Assembly: GCF_901827185.1 (NCBI RefSeq)
Contig: NZ_LR594671.1
Span: 2,418,001 to 2,482,000, forward strand
DNA length: 64,000 nt
Direction of reading: 5' to 3'
DNA from: Variovorax sp. PBL-E5
GTDB lineage: Bacteria; Pseudomonadota; Gammaproteobacteria; Burkholderiales; Burkholderiaceae_C
Under the pieces are notes generated by a model, which was given only the letters and a program-made list of their open reading frames with translations, ran no database searches and had not been told where the DNA came from. Within the stretch, counting starts at the first letter, position 1. Every line of letters begins with the position of its first letter. This document shows, in pieces, positions 3,738-21,607 of this stretch. The position numbers and the translations under genes are program-made.

Positions 3738-5519
3738 CTATGCCGTGAGGTCGCGCTGAAGAATCCTCGAGAAGGCCGCGGCCAGCTGGGACTGCGCCGC
3801 GTCGCTGCGGCCCATGGCGCGCCAGGCCACGTGCTGGTCGGGCCGCACCAGGATCGCGCCGTCGGACGACACGCCGCGCAGGCAGCGCCAGGTGCCTTCC
3901 ACATCGCGCACCGCGGCTTCGTCGTGGATCTCGACCACGTCGAGCGGCACGCCGCCGCGCCGCGCCACAGTGGCCGCCGCATCGGCCCAGGCCGATGCCC
4001 CGCGCCCGGTCAGCAGCACGAAGCGGCCCGGCTGCACGAGATCGAGCGTGGAGATCTTCCGGCCATCGCGTTCGAGCCACGCGTGCGGCAGCCGATGCCC
4101 GGGCCGGGTGGTCGGCACGTAGGTCTGGCCGAGCGGGTCGCGTTCGGGCGTGGGCGTGCCGTCAGGCATCACCGCGCCGATGTCGTAGTGGTAGCCGAGC
4201 TCGATGTCGTGCGCCTGCCATTCCATGCGCTGCACTTCCATGATCTGTGCCAGCCGTGCGCGGCGGGTGCGGCCTTCCGGGTCGTCGGCGAAGAAGCGGC
4301 GGAAGTTGGCCTGGCTCAGTTCGGCATTGCCGCGCACCAGGCCGATGCCGGCGTCGGTGAGCTGGTGGTTCTGGAAGGTCATCAGCGCCCACTGGATGTT
4401 GGCGGCAGCGACCGGCCGGCGCTCGGCCTCGTAGCTGTCGAGCAGGCTGTCGTGCGCCTGTTCCTTCAGCACCGCGGCGATCTTCCAGGCGAGGTTGTGC
4501 GCATCCTGGATCGCGGAGTTCAGGCCGAGGCCGGTGGTGGGCGGATGGCGATGCGCCGCGTCGCCGGCCAGCAGCACGCGGCCCCAGCGGTAGCGGTCGA
4601 CCAGCACGCCTTCGACGGTCCAGTGGCCGATGCCGATGATGTCGGGGTCGAGATCGGGGATCTTCAGGAGTTCGCGCATGCGCGGCAGCAGCGAGGCTTC
4701 CTCGAAGCGCGAGGGATCGTCGGGCCGGAAGCTGAAGTGGAACATCCACTCTTGCGAGTGCCGGCCGAAGCGCGTGGGGCCGAGCTGTCCCAGCACGCCG
4801 CTGGCCCACGAACCGCCTTCGGGGTTCACGAACCAGGTCGTCATTGAATCGTCGTCGTCCCAGTACTGCGAGAGGTCCGCGCGGAAGTACACGGTGACCA
4901 TGTGCGCGAGGTCGGTCGCGCCGGTCATCACCGCGCCCACGGCGGGCCCGACGGTCTTGCCGCCATCGGCGCCGATGAGGTACCTGGCGCGCACGCGGAA
5001 TTCCTCGCCGCTGGCACGGTCGAGCACCAGCGCGGTGACGCCGCTGTCATCCTGCCCGAACGATTGCAGCTGATGGTTGTAGCGCACCTGCGCAAGGTCT
5101 TCGGCCGCGGCCATCTCGCGCAGCAGCGGCTCCATGCGCACCTGGGGATACAGCGTCGACTCGCAGGGGCTGTCCTTGGCGTAGTGCTGCGCGAGCGAAC
5201 CCCCGCCGAAGGATTCGATGCGGTAGAAGGTGCGGCGGTCGAGCTCGCCGTCGCCGGCGAGCGAGGTGCACCAGCGGATGTGCGAGATGTGCTTGAGCGG
5301 CATCGAGCGCTCGTAGACGCGCTGGGCCGCGTCGAACTGGCGCAGCAGTTCCATGGTGCGCTGGCTGATGTAGCGCGCCTTGGGCAGGCGCCCGGGCGCG
5401 GGATGGCGCTCGATCAGCAGGCTGCGGATGCCCTGGCGGGAGAGGAACAGCGACGCGGCGAGGCCGCAGCCTCCGCCGCCGACGATCAGAACGGGAATGT
5501 CGATGTCTTTCATGGTCAT
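3738..5519 (-). CDS. FAD-dependent aromatic-type monooxygenase (PheA/TfdB/MhpA-like)
   Basis: A 593-residue flavoprotein hydroxylase. The N-terminal FAD dinucleotide motif VGGGGCGLAAS is at about residues 13-23, the middle motif GADGGKT corresponds to the family DG motif, and GDAAHRHPPTTGLGLNSAIQDAHNLAWK is the second FAD-binding GD motif (split here as GDAAH and GLNSAIQDAHNLAWK). A C-terminal thioredoxin-like domain is expected from the length. Family members use NAD(P)H and O2 to hydroxylate phenols or related rings. The ATG at 5519 overlaps the stop of the hemerythrin gene (ATGA); a second ATG two codons later is possible. Substrate unknown. Confidence 0.88.
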   Translation of the reverse strand: MTMKDIDIPVLIVGGGGCGLAASLFLSRQGIRSLLIERHPAPGRLPKARYISQRTMELLRQFDAAQRVYERSMPLKHISHIRWCTSLAGDGELDRRTFYRIESFGGGSLAQHYAKDSPCESTLYPQVRMEPLLREMAAAEDLAQVRYNHQLQSFGQDDSGVTALVLDRASGEEFRVRARYLIGADGGKTVGPAVGAVMTGATDLAHMVTVYFRADLSQYWDDDDSMTTWFVNPEGGSWASGVLGQLGPTRFGRHSQEWMFHFSFRPDDPSRFEEASLLPRMRELLKIPDLDPDIIGIGHWTVEGVLVDRYRWGRVLLAGDAAHRHPPTTGLGLNSAIQDAHNLAWKIAAVLKEQAHDSLLDSYEAERRPVAAANIQWALMTFQNHQLTDAGIGLVRGNAELSQANFRRFFADDPEGRTRRARLAQIMEVQRMEWQAHDIELGYHYDIGAVMPDGTPTPERDPLGQTYVPTTRPGHRLPHAWLERDGRKISTLDLVQPGRFVLLTGRGASAWADAAATVARRGGVPLDVVEIHDEAAVRDVEGTWRCLRGVSSDGAILVRPDQHVAWRAMGRSDAAQSQLAAAFSRILQRDLTA

Positions 5520-6167: not shown

Positions 6168-7016
6168 TCAGTGAAGCGCCTTGGAGGCGGCGGTCTGGAA
6201 GCGCTCGGCGCTCCAGCGGCCCCAGCGTGCGAGGTACCAGGTCAGCAGCTCGCGTTCGCTGCCGATGACCAGGCGCTGATACGCGCGCTTGCGGTAGGTC
6301 TTGACGGTCTCTTCGCTCACCGAGAGATCGAGCGCGATGCCCACCGACGACAGGCCGTAGAGAATGCGCGCGCAGACCTCGGCCTCGCGCCGCGGCAGCG
6401 CGCTGGTGGCGACGATGCAGCTCTCGATCTCGTCGAGCGTGGTCAGCGCCTGTGCCACGTTGGGCCGGCTCTGGCAGACGTCCGCGTGCTTGGACAGCAT
6501 GGCCAGCAGCAACTCCGCCGCCTGGGCCAGCTTCTCGATGCCTTCGTGCGCGAAGGGCGTGTGCGGGTCGGCGCGCAGCACGCTCAGGCCGAAGGCGCCG
6601 CTGGCACCGCGGCCGCACAGCAGGATGCGGTCCCGCACGTGGGGGTAGACGCGCGGACGCAGGTCGTCGTACTCGTGGTCGCTGAAGTCGACGTGGATGA
6701 TGGTGGCGGTGGCACCGTCGACGCGGCGCTGCGCCTCCGTCATGGCCGGGTCGTGCTTCCAGAGGCCCTGGTTGACATAGCTCTCGACGCGGTCGCGCGC
6801 GGTGCGTTCGGGCTGCACGCAGCAGGCCGCGACTTCGCGCAGCTCGTCGCGTCCGAGGCGAAAGGCCGCGAAGTGATCGGCGCCGCACAGCGAGTGGAGA
6901 TAGTTCGCGAAGGCCGGGCCGAAACGCTCGTTGCCCATGCAGTCGACGAGCTGCGCAAGGAGCGTCTCGGAGCTGTGGGCGACCGCTGGCCGGTCCTGAA
7001 TCATCACCGTCATCAT
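6168..7016 (-). CDS. LuxR-family transcriptional regulator
   Basis: A 282-residue regulator. The C-terminal 65 or so residues form a LuxR-type helix-turn-helix: LPRREAEVCARILYGLSSVGIA, then LSVSEETVKTYRKRAYQRL as turn and recognition helix. The N-terminal part has no receiver domain and looks like a ligand-sensing region (GAF/PAS-like), as in LuxR regulators of catabolic genes in betaproteobacteria. The ATG at 7016 is preceded by a good ribosome site AGGAGA. It is flanked by hemerythrin/monooxygenase genes and an IclR gene, and is the natural candidate activator of this cluster. The effector is unknown. Confidence 0.85.
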   Translation of the reverse strand: MMTVMIQDRPAVAHSSETLLAQLVDCMGNERFGPAFANYLHSLCGADHFAAFRLGRDELREVAACCVQPERTARDRVESYVNQGLWKHDPAMTEAQRRVDGATATIIHVDFSDHEYDDLRPRVYPHVRDRILLCGRGASGAFGLSVLRADPHTPFAHEGIEKLAQAAELLLAMLSKHADVCQSRPNVAQALTTLDEIESCIVATSALPRREAEVCARILYGLSSVGIALDLSVSEETVKTYRKRAYQRLVIGSERELLTWYLARWGRWSAERFQTAASKALH

Positions 7017-7094
7017 GGTTGTCTCCTGGGTGCTGGGATGCGCCCTGGGGCGCCAGCTGCCCGGACTTCTGTGTTCCGGGCAAGTTTCGAACTC

Positions 7095-7109
7095 CGTAAT
7101 CAGATTACG
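7095..7109. promoter_or_regulatory. Palindrome CGTAATC-A-GATTACG, candidate operator
   Basis: A perfect seven-base inverted repeat around a single central base lies in the 150-bp gap upstream of the LuxR-type gene, about 79 bp before its ATG, and downstream of the IclR gene. It is AT-rich compared with the surroundings. It could serve autoregulation of the LuxR gene or binding by the IclR protein. No promoter could be assigned with confidence. Confidence 0.4.
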
Positions 7110-7166
7110 CTCTTTGAAATCTCGTGTGTCTCCGGATAAACCCTTCGATGGGTGCCGCGCCGCGGT

Positions 7167-8021
7167 TCAACCCCAGCCCATGCGCCGCGAAACGTCTTCG
7201 GCGCGCGCCGCGAGGGCCTTGGCGACCGGGCCGTCGAAACGGGTGTCGATCCGGCCGGCCGGACCCATCACGGTGATCACGCCCGCCACCGCGCCGGCGT
7301 GATCGAAGACCGGCGCCGAGATGCCGTGCAGGCCGGGATTGAGGTCGCCCTCGATGCGCGCGAGCTTGCGCTTGCGCACGGCCTCGAACAGGGCCCGCAC
7401 GTCGGCCTTGCTCATCGTGCGGGCGATCTTGTTCGGGATGGCGCCCGGGTGCTGCACGCCTGCCAGTTCGCGCTCGATGAACGGTGCCGTCACCGATGCG
7501 GGCATGTAGGCACCGAAGAGCTGCCCGGTGGACGAGGTCAGCATCGGCATCACCGAGCCCGGCCGGCCGCTGATGACGAGCGCATCGTTGGTTTCCTCGA
7601 AGCGCACGTAGGTCGGACCTGCCGAGCCCCAGACGGCGAGGCCGACAGTGAAGCCGAGTTCGTCGCGCATTTCGCCCAGCGTCGGCGATGCGACCTGAAC
7701 GACGTTCAGCCGGCGCAGTGCCGCCAGACCGATGCGCACGGCCAGCGGCCCGAGCCGATAGCCGCCGCTCGCGGAATCGCGTTCGGCGAGGCCGCCGCGG
7801 CAGAAGCTCACGAGGTAGCGGTGGGCCTTCGGCGGCTGCATCTCGGCACGCTCGGCCACCGTCTTGAGCATCAGCGGCGCGCCGGTGTCGATCAGCGCGG
7901 AGAGCACGCGCACCGCGGTATCCACGGCCTGCACGCCGCCGGCATCTTCGTCGCTCGCGCCCCCGCCGCCGTCGCCGTTTCCTGGAGACTTTGCATCGAT
8001 CATGGGTGGGGATGGGTCCAT
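7167..8021 (-). CDS. IclR-family transcriptional regulator
   Basis: About 284 residues. The N-terminal winged helix-turn-helix begins near AVDTAVRVLSAL and includes KTVAERAEMQPPKAHRYLVSF; the C-terminal IclR effector domain follows, with the motif LNPGLHGISAPVFDHAG typical of the family. IclR proteins commonly control uptake and breakdown of aromatic or organic acids and respond to a pathway intermediate. An extra Gly/Asp-rich leader precedes the DNA-binding domain. The ATG at 8021 is preferred over a GTG two codons upstream at 8027; an ATG at 8003 is also possible. Confidence 0.88.
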   Translation of the reverse strand: MDPSPPMIDAKSPGNGDGGGGASDEDAGGVQAVDTAVRVLSALIDTGAPLMLKTVAERAEMQPPKAHRYLVSFCRGGLAERDSASGGYRLGPLAVRIGLAALRRLNVVQVASPTLGEMRDELGFTVGLAVWGSAGPTYVRFEETNDALVISGRPGSVMPMLTSSTGQLFGAYMPASVTAPFIERELAGVQHPGAIPNKIARTMSKADVRALFEAVRKRKLARIEGDLNPGLHGISAPVFDHAGAVAGVITVMGPAGRIDTRFDGPVAKALAARAEDVSRRMGWG

Positions 8022-19218: not shown

Positions 19219-19578
19219 CTAGACTTTGATCATGGCTTCGGCGTCCTGCACCTTGCGGCGCGCCAGCGCCAGGTTGGCGCGGGCCTTGTCGAGCACGATA
19301 TAGAAGAACAGGCCCGCGTTCGACGCGATGGGGCGGATGATGTGGTACTGCTTGCCCAGCGTGATCAGGATGTCGTCGATGCTGTCGTTCAACTTGAGCG
19401 ACTGCATCGTGCGTATCTTGGCGCGCACCACTTCAGTATTGCCGGCAGCCGCCAGCTCGATGTCGACGCCGGAGCCGGCCTGGCCCAGCACCATGCCCGA
19501 GTTGCTGTCGACGAGCGCGGCGCACATCGCGCCGTCGATCGACATGGCCTGGCTCAAGGATTGTTCGATGGATGCCAT
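19219..19578 (-). CDS. Roadblock/LC7 domain protein (119 residues)
   Basis: A small protein consisting of a single roadblock/LC7 domain: N-terminal helix MASIEQSLSQAM, then the strand AALVDSNSGMVLG, a central helix, ILITLGKQYHIIRPI and FFYIVLD as later strands. Such domains dimerise and, in MglB-type proteins, act as GTPase-activating partners of small GTPases. It is the last gene of a four-gene minus-strand module with another roadblock protein, a GTPase-like protein and a two-domain protein. A good ribosome site (GGGAG) precedes the ATG. Its exact role is unknown. Confidence 0.83.
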   Translation of the reverse strand: MASIEQSLSQAMSIDGAMCAALVDSNSGMVLGQAGSGVDIELAAAGNTEVVRAKIRTMQSLKLNDSIDDILITLGKQYHIIRPIASNAGLFFYIVLDKARANLALARRKVQDAEAMIKV

Positions 19579-19613
19579 GGTTATCTACTCCCTTTCATTG
19601 CAATTGCAGAACG

Positions 19614-20027
19614 TTAGATCAAAGAAATGGCCTTGCCGATCTCATCGGCGGCCCACAGGGCGGCACCCAGCAGCATGCCGGGTGCCAGCACCATGCACAG
19701 CAGCAGCCCGTCGCCCTTGCCCACCGGGCGTATGAGCAACTTGCCGTTCGGACTCTCCACGATCAGGCCGTCGCAGCCTTCATGGCCCACTTCGCGGCTG
19801 GCGGCGCGCGCCACGGCGATCAGCGAACCCGCCATGGCTGCGAATTGGGCCGATCGAGGCTCGCCCTGGTAGTGGACCGCGGCGACCTCGAAGCCATCCG
19901 GCGTCGCCAGCACCACGGTCGTCACCTTGGAGTGCGACTCGGTGTGTTGCTTCAGGACGGCGACATACCGGTCTCGCTTGGCGTGATGCGCCGAGACGAA
20001 TGGCTTGCGGTGGCGGGAATTGGTCAT
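19614..20027 (-). CDS. Roadblock/LC7 domain protein (137 residues)
   Basis: A second roadblock/LC7 protein. After a basic N-terminal tail (about 20 residues) come VTTVVLATPDGFEVAAV, the long helix FAAMAGSLIAVARAASREV and GLIVESPNGKLLIRPV with LLLCMVLAPGMLLG. This is the strand-helix pattern of bacterial MglB/CvnB-like proteins. It lies eight bases downstream of the GTPase-like gene, so the two are certainly co-expressed; it is the best candidate direct partner or activator of that GTPase. Confidence 0.83.
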   Translation of the reverse strand: MTNSRHRKPFVSAHHAKRDRYVAVLKQHTESHSKVTTVVLATPDGFEVAAVHYQGEPRSAQFAAMAGSLIAVARAASREVGHEGCDGLIVESPNGKLLIRPVGKGDGLLLCMVLAPGMLLGAALWAADEIGKAISLI

Positions 20028-20035
20028 GGTGCTGG

Positions 20036-20566
20036 TCAGTACGTGGGGTCCGGCAGCACGGCGACCAGCAGTTCGAGCGCATCGAGCATCTGCTGCCTGT
20101 CCCGTACGTCGACCTGCATCACCGGAACCGCCCAGCCGACACGGCCGGCGAGTTCTTCGGCAAAGTGCTGGATGAGCGCGGGATCCGCCGGCCGCGCAAC
20201 CAGCACGACGACGGCCGCTTCGGGCGCGAGTTCGCTTGTCATCGCGATGGCGTGCTGCGCATGGTCGATGGCATCGGCCTCCGCGAGATCGACCAGCACC
20301 ATCACGCCCATCGCGAAGCTGAGCAGCCAGCGGCGCATGAAATCGAAGCGGCTTTGACCGGGACTGCCGTAGACGTGCAATTCATCGCCGTTGCCCAAGC
20401 GCACGATGCCGAAGTCCGCGCCAACGGTGGTCGTGGCCTTCGCGTGGCGCTCGGTGTCCAGATTGGCGACATCGCAATCCACCACCGTGTCGCCGCAGAG
20501 CGCGCGCACGGCCGTTGTCTTTCCGATGCCCATCTCGCCGAAAAGCACGATGCGTGGTGCATTCAT
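20036..20566 (-). CDS. Ras-like P-loop GTPase-family protein (COG2229/MglA/CvnD-like)
   Basis: A 176-residue P-loop protein. The G1 loop is GEMGIGKTT (residues 10-18), the switch I region is TTTVGADFG (45-53) and the G3 region is YGSPGQSRF (66-74), very like the FGTPGQERF of the COG2229 predicted GTPases. The G4 motif NKxD is not present; the equivalent strand reads VVVLVARPADP, so guanine specificity is uncertain. It overlaps the upstream gene by four bases (ATGA) and is followed by a roadblock gene, as in MglA-MglB and in Streptomyces conservons. Likely a nucleotide-dependent switch at the membrane or cell pole; this is inference. Confidence 0.8.
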   Translation of the reverse strand: MNAPRIVLFGEMGIGKTTAVRALCGDTVVDCDVANLDTERHAKATTTVGADFGIVRLGNGDELHVYGSPGQSRFDFMRRWLLSFAMGVMVLVDLAEADAIDHAQHAIAMTSELAPEAAVVVLVARPADPALIQHFAEELAGRVGWAVPVMQVDVRDRQQMLDALELLVAVLPDPTY

Positions 20567-21249
20567 GAGGTGTGCGGCCCCGTGGGCACCGGCGTCGATC
20601 GTGCGCCGGAAAGCCATTGCCTTAGCTTGCCGATAAAGCCGGGCGTGGCCTGGCGATCGCCGATGGTCGTATTGACGAGTGCGGCGGCGGGCGCTTCGGA
20701 GATATACAGGGCATCCCTGCGTTGCAGGGCATTCAGCAATGCATCGATCTGGGTGGCACTCAATTCGCAATTCTTGACAATCCAGTCCCGTGTCACCGCT
20801 TTTCTCGCCATGGCCGCCAATGCTCTCGAATGCGCGGGACTTGCCATTCCCGAATCCAGGCTGACCCAATGCCGGAGTTTGAAAGCGAGTGCGATGTCGC
20901 CGCCGAGCGGCATCGGCTGCGACTTGTTGTTGGCATCCCGGAGATTGAGAATACGAACGGCCGCCAGGTCGAGTGCCGCAATGAGCGATGCGACACCGTA
21001 TGCGGCTTCCAGTCGAACGGCCTGAATCGGGCATGCCTGCTTCGGCGCATCGCCGATGACAAGGGCAACAGCATCCGCGCGCACTTCAATGGCTCGATCG
21101 ACCACCACGACATCCGCGCCGATCGGTGCCACGGACTCCCACTGAACGATGCTGCGCGTCCGGGCGACATTGAACAATGCGTCGAATCGCATGCCCAGCG
21201 AAGCCGGCAGAAGATCGGCACTGATACGAACCGTTTTTTTCATTTCCAT
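20563..21249 (-). CDS. Uncharacterised two-domain protein of the roadblock/GTPase module
   Basis: About 228 residues, not matched to a named family by eye. The N-terminal 110 residues alternate strands and helices (ADVVVVDRAIEVRADAVALVIGD, then ASLIAALDLAAVRIL), resembling a degenerate receiver-like fold. The second half (FKLRHWVSLDSG..., RKAVTRDWIVKNCELSATQIDALLNALQRRDALYI) looks like a winged helix, comparable in position to the DUF742 protein CvnC of conservons. It is the first gene of the operon. ATG codons at 21249 and 21243 both suit; the frame is open further up to a GTG at 21375. Confidence 0.65.
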   Translation of the reverse strand: MEMKKTVRISADLLPASLGMRFDALFNVARTRSIVQWESVAPIGADVVVVDRAIEVRADAVALVIGDAPKQACPIQAVRLEAAYGVASLIAALDLAAVRILNLRDANNKSQPMPLGGDIALAFKLRHWVSLDSGMASPAHSRALAAMARKAVTRDWIVKNCELSATQIDALLNALQRRDALYISEAPAAALVNTTIGDRQATPGFIGKLRQWLSGARSTPVPTGPHTS

Positions 21250-21476: not shown

Positions 21477-21565
21477 TTAGAACTTCTATTTGCGCTCAGC
21501 AGAGTTCAATGCGTATCGAAGATGCTCGGCGGCCAGTCGATCCGGATGCGGGTCTCGAACATGAC

Positions 21566-21607
21566 GAAGACCGAAGACCGAAGACCGAAGACCGAAGACC
21601 GAAGACC
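21566..21607. repeat. Tandem repeat (GAAGACC)x6
   Basis: Six exact, uninterrupted copies of the seven-base unit GAAGACC lie just beyond the 3' end of hpnE. Such arrays change copy number by replication slippage, so it may vary between strains. It is outside coding sequence. Confidence 0.9.

Follow-up and report, generated by a model that had tools for sequence, protein, structure and literature searches.

Organization of the locus

The window analysed here is the whole stretch of 64,000 nucleotides from Variovorax sp. PBL-E5, and all positions are counted from its first letter. Between 19219 and 21249 it carries four minus-strand genes (Table 1), which were confirmed as real and lie where the original prediction had placed them. 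When the coordinates were re-derived from the open reading frames, the tight operon that had been claimed was recovered, with a four-base overlap of genes 1 and 2 and gaps of 8 bases between genes 2 and 3 and of 35 bases between genes 3 and 4. The start codon of gene 1 is perhaps at 21243 rather than at 21249. The squalene synthesis genes hpnE, hpnD and hpnC lie upstream of the module and a gene for a ferredoxin-NAD reductase-like protein lies downstream; in the eight relatives viewed, the genes downstream of hpnE were other than those in the window. The seven neighbours scanned code for metabolic or transport proteins, none of which resembles a signalling partner, and a histidine kinase (CvnA) is absent among them, in agreement with the proposal of a switch without a kinase.

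Searches of the host genome, which spans 7.09 Mb in 4 contigs, gave a single Robl_LC7 match and a single copy each of a GTPase of this kind and of gene 4. The GC content was 63.2% in the module and 52% in the spacer that separates hpnE from gene 1, compared to 67.7% for the window. In this spacer, the heptamer CGAAGAC is repeated in tandem without a mismatch (6.1 copies, 100% match, window 21565-21607). A scan for promoters and terminators returned 0 and 2 sites, respectively, which is the level of chance.

Table 1. Positions of the module genes and of their predicted parts in the window
Feature	Position	Strand	Basis or remark
Gene 1, input protein, 228 aa	20563..21249	-	ORF calls; pseudo-receiver, winged helix, linker and amphipathic tail
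Degenerate receiver-like domain, gene 1 residues 6-109	20923..21234	-	strand-helix-strand-strand-strand-strand-helix
Winged helix, CvnC/DUF742-like, gene 1 residues 121-185	20695..20889	-	
C-terminal amphipathic helix GFIGKLRQWLSG, gene 1 residues 205-217	20599..20637	-	after disordered linker 189-203
Overlap of genes 1 and 2, ATGA	20563..20566	-	ORF calls
Gene 2, MglA-family GTPase, 176 residues	20036..20566	-	Ras 4.5e-6; motif table, 61 sequences
Gene 3, roadblock/LC7, 137 residues, MglB-like, D-G pair, presumed GAP	19614..20027	-	Robl_LC7 1.2e-6
Gene 4, hyperconserved roadblock protein, 119 residues	19219..19578	-	MglB fold; missed by Pfam

GTPase and roadblock proteins

The module had been predicted to combine a Ras-like GTPase and a two-domain partner with two roadblock proteins that differ from each other. 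The Ras and Robl_LC7 profile matches and the MglB fold of gene 4 support this composition. The GTPase has the P-loop GEMGIGKT, TT in G2, GSPGQ in G3 (with serine for threonine) and DVR in G5, and the NKxD of G4 is absent from it. Across the 61 sequences of the motif table, TT in G2 and GxPGQ in G3 were found in all 61 and the arginine in G5 in 45. A sequence search of the PDB with the GTPase returned Rab/Sec4-type proteins (best 3.3e-5) and no MglA among the best 60 of 114 matches.

Gene 3 matches Robl_LC7 above the cut-off and retains the Asp-Gly pair, as PDGF; judged from its sequence, it is MglB-like and probably a GAP for gene 2. Gene 4 adopts the MglB/roadblock fold in structure comparison, though Pfam does not recognize it. 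Median identities to the window, taken only over loci with a BLAST match among 49 loci, 18 of which had been retrieved with gene 4 itself, were 27% for gene 1 (10 loci), 41% for gene 2 (42), 35% for gene 3 (28) and 69% for gene 4 (49). By this measure gene 1 was the least and gene 4 the best conserved component.

A search of a database of 5.8 billion proteins with gene 4 gave 7788 relatives (E <= 0.001), and relatives occur on plasmids of Streptomyces, Deinococcus and Hymenobacter (28 records). No GTPase is annotated beside the gene 4 relatives in the Streptomyces and Deinococcus plasmid regions viewed, and the role of gene 4 is therefore wider than this module. One Streptomyces plasmid (L145, 3233-5375) carries two gene-4-like proteins with a roadblock protein and a protein that joins a DUF4388-like domain (just below the cut-off) to a helix-turn-helix; within the 10.4 kb viewed there, no GTPase is annotated.

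Architecture of the proposed input protein

The predicted structure of gene 1 (pLDDT 83.1, pTM 0.54) has an N-terminal domain with the fold of a receiver in structure comparison. Its acceptor site is incomplete: among 65 sequences, with the positions read by eye off the model, residue 51 is D or E in all 65 and residue 12 is acidic in 46, and the lysine conserved in receivers is missing where the last strand ends (residues 80-82). Pfam and NCBIfam returned nothing above threshold for gene 1, DUF742 included. A hint of DprA_WH was rejected as sub-threshold (E 0.006); one CvnC protein shows an equally weak DprA_WH hint (0.0066). A search of the same large database with the single sequence recovered gene 1 itself and one other protein, and the profile recovered at least 82.

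The winged helix was compared by hhalign with five DUF742 proteins from two plasmid records and scored 85% one way and 89% the other, over 46 columns at 13% identity. The controls scored 28% (IclR), 15% (DeoR), 0.3% (LysR) and 0.2% (reversed sequences), with small alignments of 3, 1 and 5 sequences for the three families. Winged helices are alike in general, and CvnC against IclR itself reached 39.5%. The earlier assignment of the first protein to the CvnC position gains moderate support from its winged helix, which in these small alignments is nearer to CvnC/DUF742 than to the three control families. However, the receiver-like N-terminal domain is missing from CvnC, and gene 1 is therefore more than a CvnC. 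In the Mfp system, MfpD acts as a GAP, and the CvnC homologue MfpC is described as the likely GEF for MfpB (PMC13343842). By analogy with MfpC, gene 1 may carry the exchange function for its GTPase.

Gene 1 ends in a basic amphipathic helix after a flexible linker. The helix is present in the model at low confidence (block pLDDT about 57), and its tryptophan, W212, is invariant in the 11 homologues aligned. The corresponding tails are GLLSRIRRRLGL in a second Variovorax type, GFLSRLLKKVAGL in a Neisseriales-like genome (L050) and GFYAKMRSFLRL in a protein with a BLUF domain. A pattern composed post hoc from the tails, many of one genus, matched 46 of the 49 distinct proteins from the loci, counted after the removal of three wrong-frame picks. 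Among the remaining genes of the loci it matched 20 of 458, and among shuffled tails 3.6%. It was also found in 62 of 73 database proteins and, out of sample, in both of two later proteins. The best hydrophobic moment was modestly higher in the tails than in controls (median 0.52 vs 0.47, p 3e-7); an earlier measure of amphipathicity on the Eisenberg scale was discarded, as it often picked windows outside the tail helix. MinD binds membranes through an amphipathic tail of this kind. The MinD of the host ends in EKPGFFKRIFGR, which itself fails the exact pattern. The MinD-like tail of gene 1 makes membrane attachment a good prediction. One database protein with PilC joined to a gene 1 tail (P0202) was set aside as a probably chimaeric metagenome record.

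The input domain of gene 1 is exchangeable: it is receiver-like in the window and BLUF in gamma-proteobacterial copies. BLUF replaces the N-terminal domain in four modules, two of them in one genome (L110 and L111), one in L112 and one on an Agarilytica plasmid (L148), with Pfam E values from 8e-23 to 6e-20, and the winged helix and the tail are retained behind it. The plasmid protein is annotated by NCBI as 'BLUF domain-containing'. No report of a BLUF-MglA system was found in the literature searched, which covered few subscription papers. In another locus (L122, 4003-5604), a 534-residue protein consists of BLUF, a middle part, a Pro/Ala-rich linker and a gene-4 roadblock domain. By eye its middle part was taken for a broken GTPase, a reading that was dropped, as the 195-residue piece has no Pfam match.

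Distribution and gene order

Among 150 relatives, 45 gave a match to the GTPase (weak and partial in one, G036) and 39 to gene 4, every one of the 39 being among those with the GTPase. In a class sample of 274 genomes, the GTPase was found in 50 and gene 4 in 12, of which 11 have the GTPase. The co-occurrence of the two is significant in both sets (Fisher, 5e-30 and 3e-8, respectively, uncorrected for kinship). Some genomes have the GTPase but no gene 4, among them the Neisseriales-like genomes L050 to L052.

The expectation that the gene set is kept in relatives was borne out by a profile survey of gene order, in which all four components were together in 29 of 44 loci; several of the loci come from shared genomes, and most of the 44 had also served to build the profiles. 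Two proteins left out of the gene 1 profile, L148 and L150, still matched it (5e-9 and 1e-6, respectively). The order was 1-2-3-4 in 22 of the 29 loci (with gene 4 on the opposite strand in L109), 4-1-2-3 in five and 3-4-1-2 in two. A fourth order, 2-3-1-4, was seen on an Acinetobacter plasmid, where it spans the record origin (L055 and L150). Gene 4 was missing from six of the 44 loci, and in seven it had no adjacent GTPase, one of these being the BLUF fusion in L122.

Some of these loci have other genes beside or fused to the GTPase. In L050, a phosphonate-binding-type protein (PhnD-like, E 1e-30; 4332-5078, minus strand), seemingly without a signal peptide, follows the GTPase and roadblock genes, and a similar protein follows in L052. 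A link to FimV was suspected by eye for a TPR gene upstream in L050 and was dropped, since NCBIfam gave TPR-type matches only, with PilW below threshold and none for FimV. In L052, from a genome of the same order, a 499-residue protein (6440-7936, minus strand) joins a Ser/Thr kinase domain (Pkinase E 9e-34) to an MglA-type GTPase.

Relation to known systems

Bacterial MglA GTPases have been split into five groups, of which Group 3 is almost confined to beta- and gamma-proteobacteria (Wuichet and Sogaard-Andersen 2014, PMC4316618). In that description, such loci typically pair an MglA and either one or two MglB homologues with a functionally unassigned protein that has a receiver-like and a winged-helix part. 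The Group 3 GTPase has the P-loop GxxxxGK[T/S], TT in place of the arginine in G2, GTPGQ in G3, a G4 that departs from [NT]KxD and a DAR-like G5. The window has the same gene content, with the receiver-like and winged-helix partner present as gene 1 in the model, and the same GTPase motifs, differing in its GSPGQ. The locus shows the Group 3 features tested and is therefore assigned to the Group 3 MglA systems, a class that has been described but whose function is uncharacterised. The view that the module was undescribed is therefore not retained, since Group 3 was already outlined in 2014 (PMC4316618). The amphipathic tail of the unknown protein, the BLUF swap of its input domain and the strong conservation of the second roadblock protein are not mentioned in the treatment of Group 3 in that paper.

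Three other systems use similar parts. The actinobacterial conservons (CvnA-D; AGPS) are also four-gene operons with a roadblock protein, a DUF742-like winged helix and an MglA-family GTPase with a deviant G4. In comparison, the window has no histidine kinase among the neighbours scanned, its winged helix is fused to a receiver-like domain, and it has a second roadblock protein. Myxococcus MglA/MglB/MglC with RomR likewise combines a GTPase with a roadblock GAP, a second roadblock paralogue and a receiver-domain partner. However, the Myxococcus partners are not in one operon, and its Group 1 GTPase is described with an intrinsic arginine and TVPGQ (PMC4316618), where the window has TT and GSPGQ. 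In Thermus and Deinococcus, an input protein, an ATP/GTP-binding protein and a roadblock protein stand in a row, but the input is DUF4388, a protoglobin gene lies downstream and gene 4 has no match in that locus. On one Thermus plasmid (L054, 2369-4498), the DUF4388 protein, GTPase, roadblock and protoglobin-domain genes are consecutive, and the last suggests a gas or redox input.

Possible mechanism and significance

We suggest, at about even confidence and from sequence and predicted structure, that a membrane-tethered gene 1 controls nucleotide exchange on the GTPase, with gene 3 as its GAP and gene 4 as a roadblock partner. The receiver-like domain would be the sensing part that takes in a signal, the CvnC-type winged helix would probably be the exchange-factor or GTPase-contact part, and the short C-terminal helix on its flexible linker would hold the protein at the inner membrane. 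A signal passing through gene 1 would then shift gene 2 between its GDP and GTP forms at the membrane, and gene 2 bound to GTP would in turn engage an effector. Gene 3 would probably be the GAP. Gene 4 may pair with another copy of itself, with the gene 3 protein or with the GTPase, as the constant core of the complex. The folds, motifs, gene content and exchangeable input domain come from computation; we infer the GAP and exchange roles, the membrane attachment and the direction of signalling.

It is also conceivable, though unlikely, that gene 1 is a DNA-binding protein like a response regulator and that the module regulates transcription, as PMC4316618 suggests. The receiver-like and winged-helix architecture is in line with this, and mutants of the related conservons show changed gene expression (PMC13343842). 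However, the winged helix is closer to CvnC than to the IclR, DeoR and LysR controls, the amphipathic tail is conserved and the receiver acceptor-site residues are incomplete. We hold a polarity switch for type IV pili, as in Myxococcus, to be equally improbable. In favour of such a switch, Snodgrassella, which has a Group 3 locus, is reported to colonise a non-native bee better and to spread differently on soft agar when an mglB not linked to that locus is mutated (PMC11112851). On the other hand, no pilus gene is among the seven neighbours scanned, and the module is patchy within the genus. PilT-family genes are present in 147 of 150 relatives irrespective of the module, and co-occurrence with pili is therefore uninformative. 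A mobile, dispensable cassette with a function apart from the core biology of the host, such as a transferred niche-specific sensor, is the least probable of these, for although the two proteins flanking the module in the window have no tblastn match in 40 loci, copies occur on plasmids and the GC content is below that of the window, the four components stay together across families and orders and gene 4 is strongly conserved; it would in any case be compatible with the membrane-bound exchange mechanism.

To the known class, this locus and its relatives add a constant fourth protein, an exchangeable input and a predicted membrane tail, together with the recurrence of four components in four gene orders and a winged helix in gene 1 that resembles conservon CvnC. 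A more speculative generalization, which we offer tentatively, is that Group 3 systems might be plug-in, membrane-bound G-protein receptors. In such receptors, the exchange-factor winged helix, of CvnC type, in a MinD-tailed protein would be joined to one of several exchangeable inputs (pseudo-receiver, BLUF and perhaps DUF4388), gene 4 would be the common coupling element, and light would switch a Ras-like GTPase in the BLUF versions. The gene content of Group 3 has been listed since 2014, yet no input or location is assigned to it in the literature searched. If the tail and the exchangeable input are real, control of the GTPase could be tested through membrane binding of gene 1 and, in the BLUF versions, through light. 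Gene 4 would add to bacterial G-protein complexes a new constant component, as yet unnamed by the domain databases.
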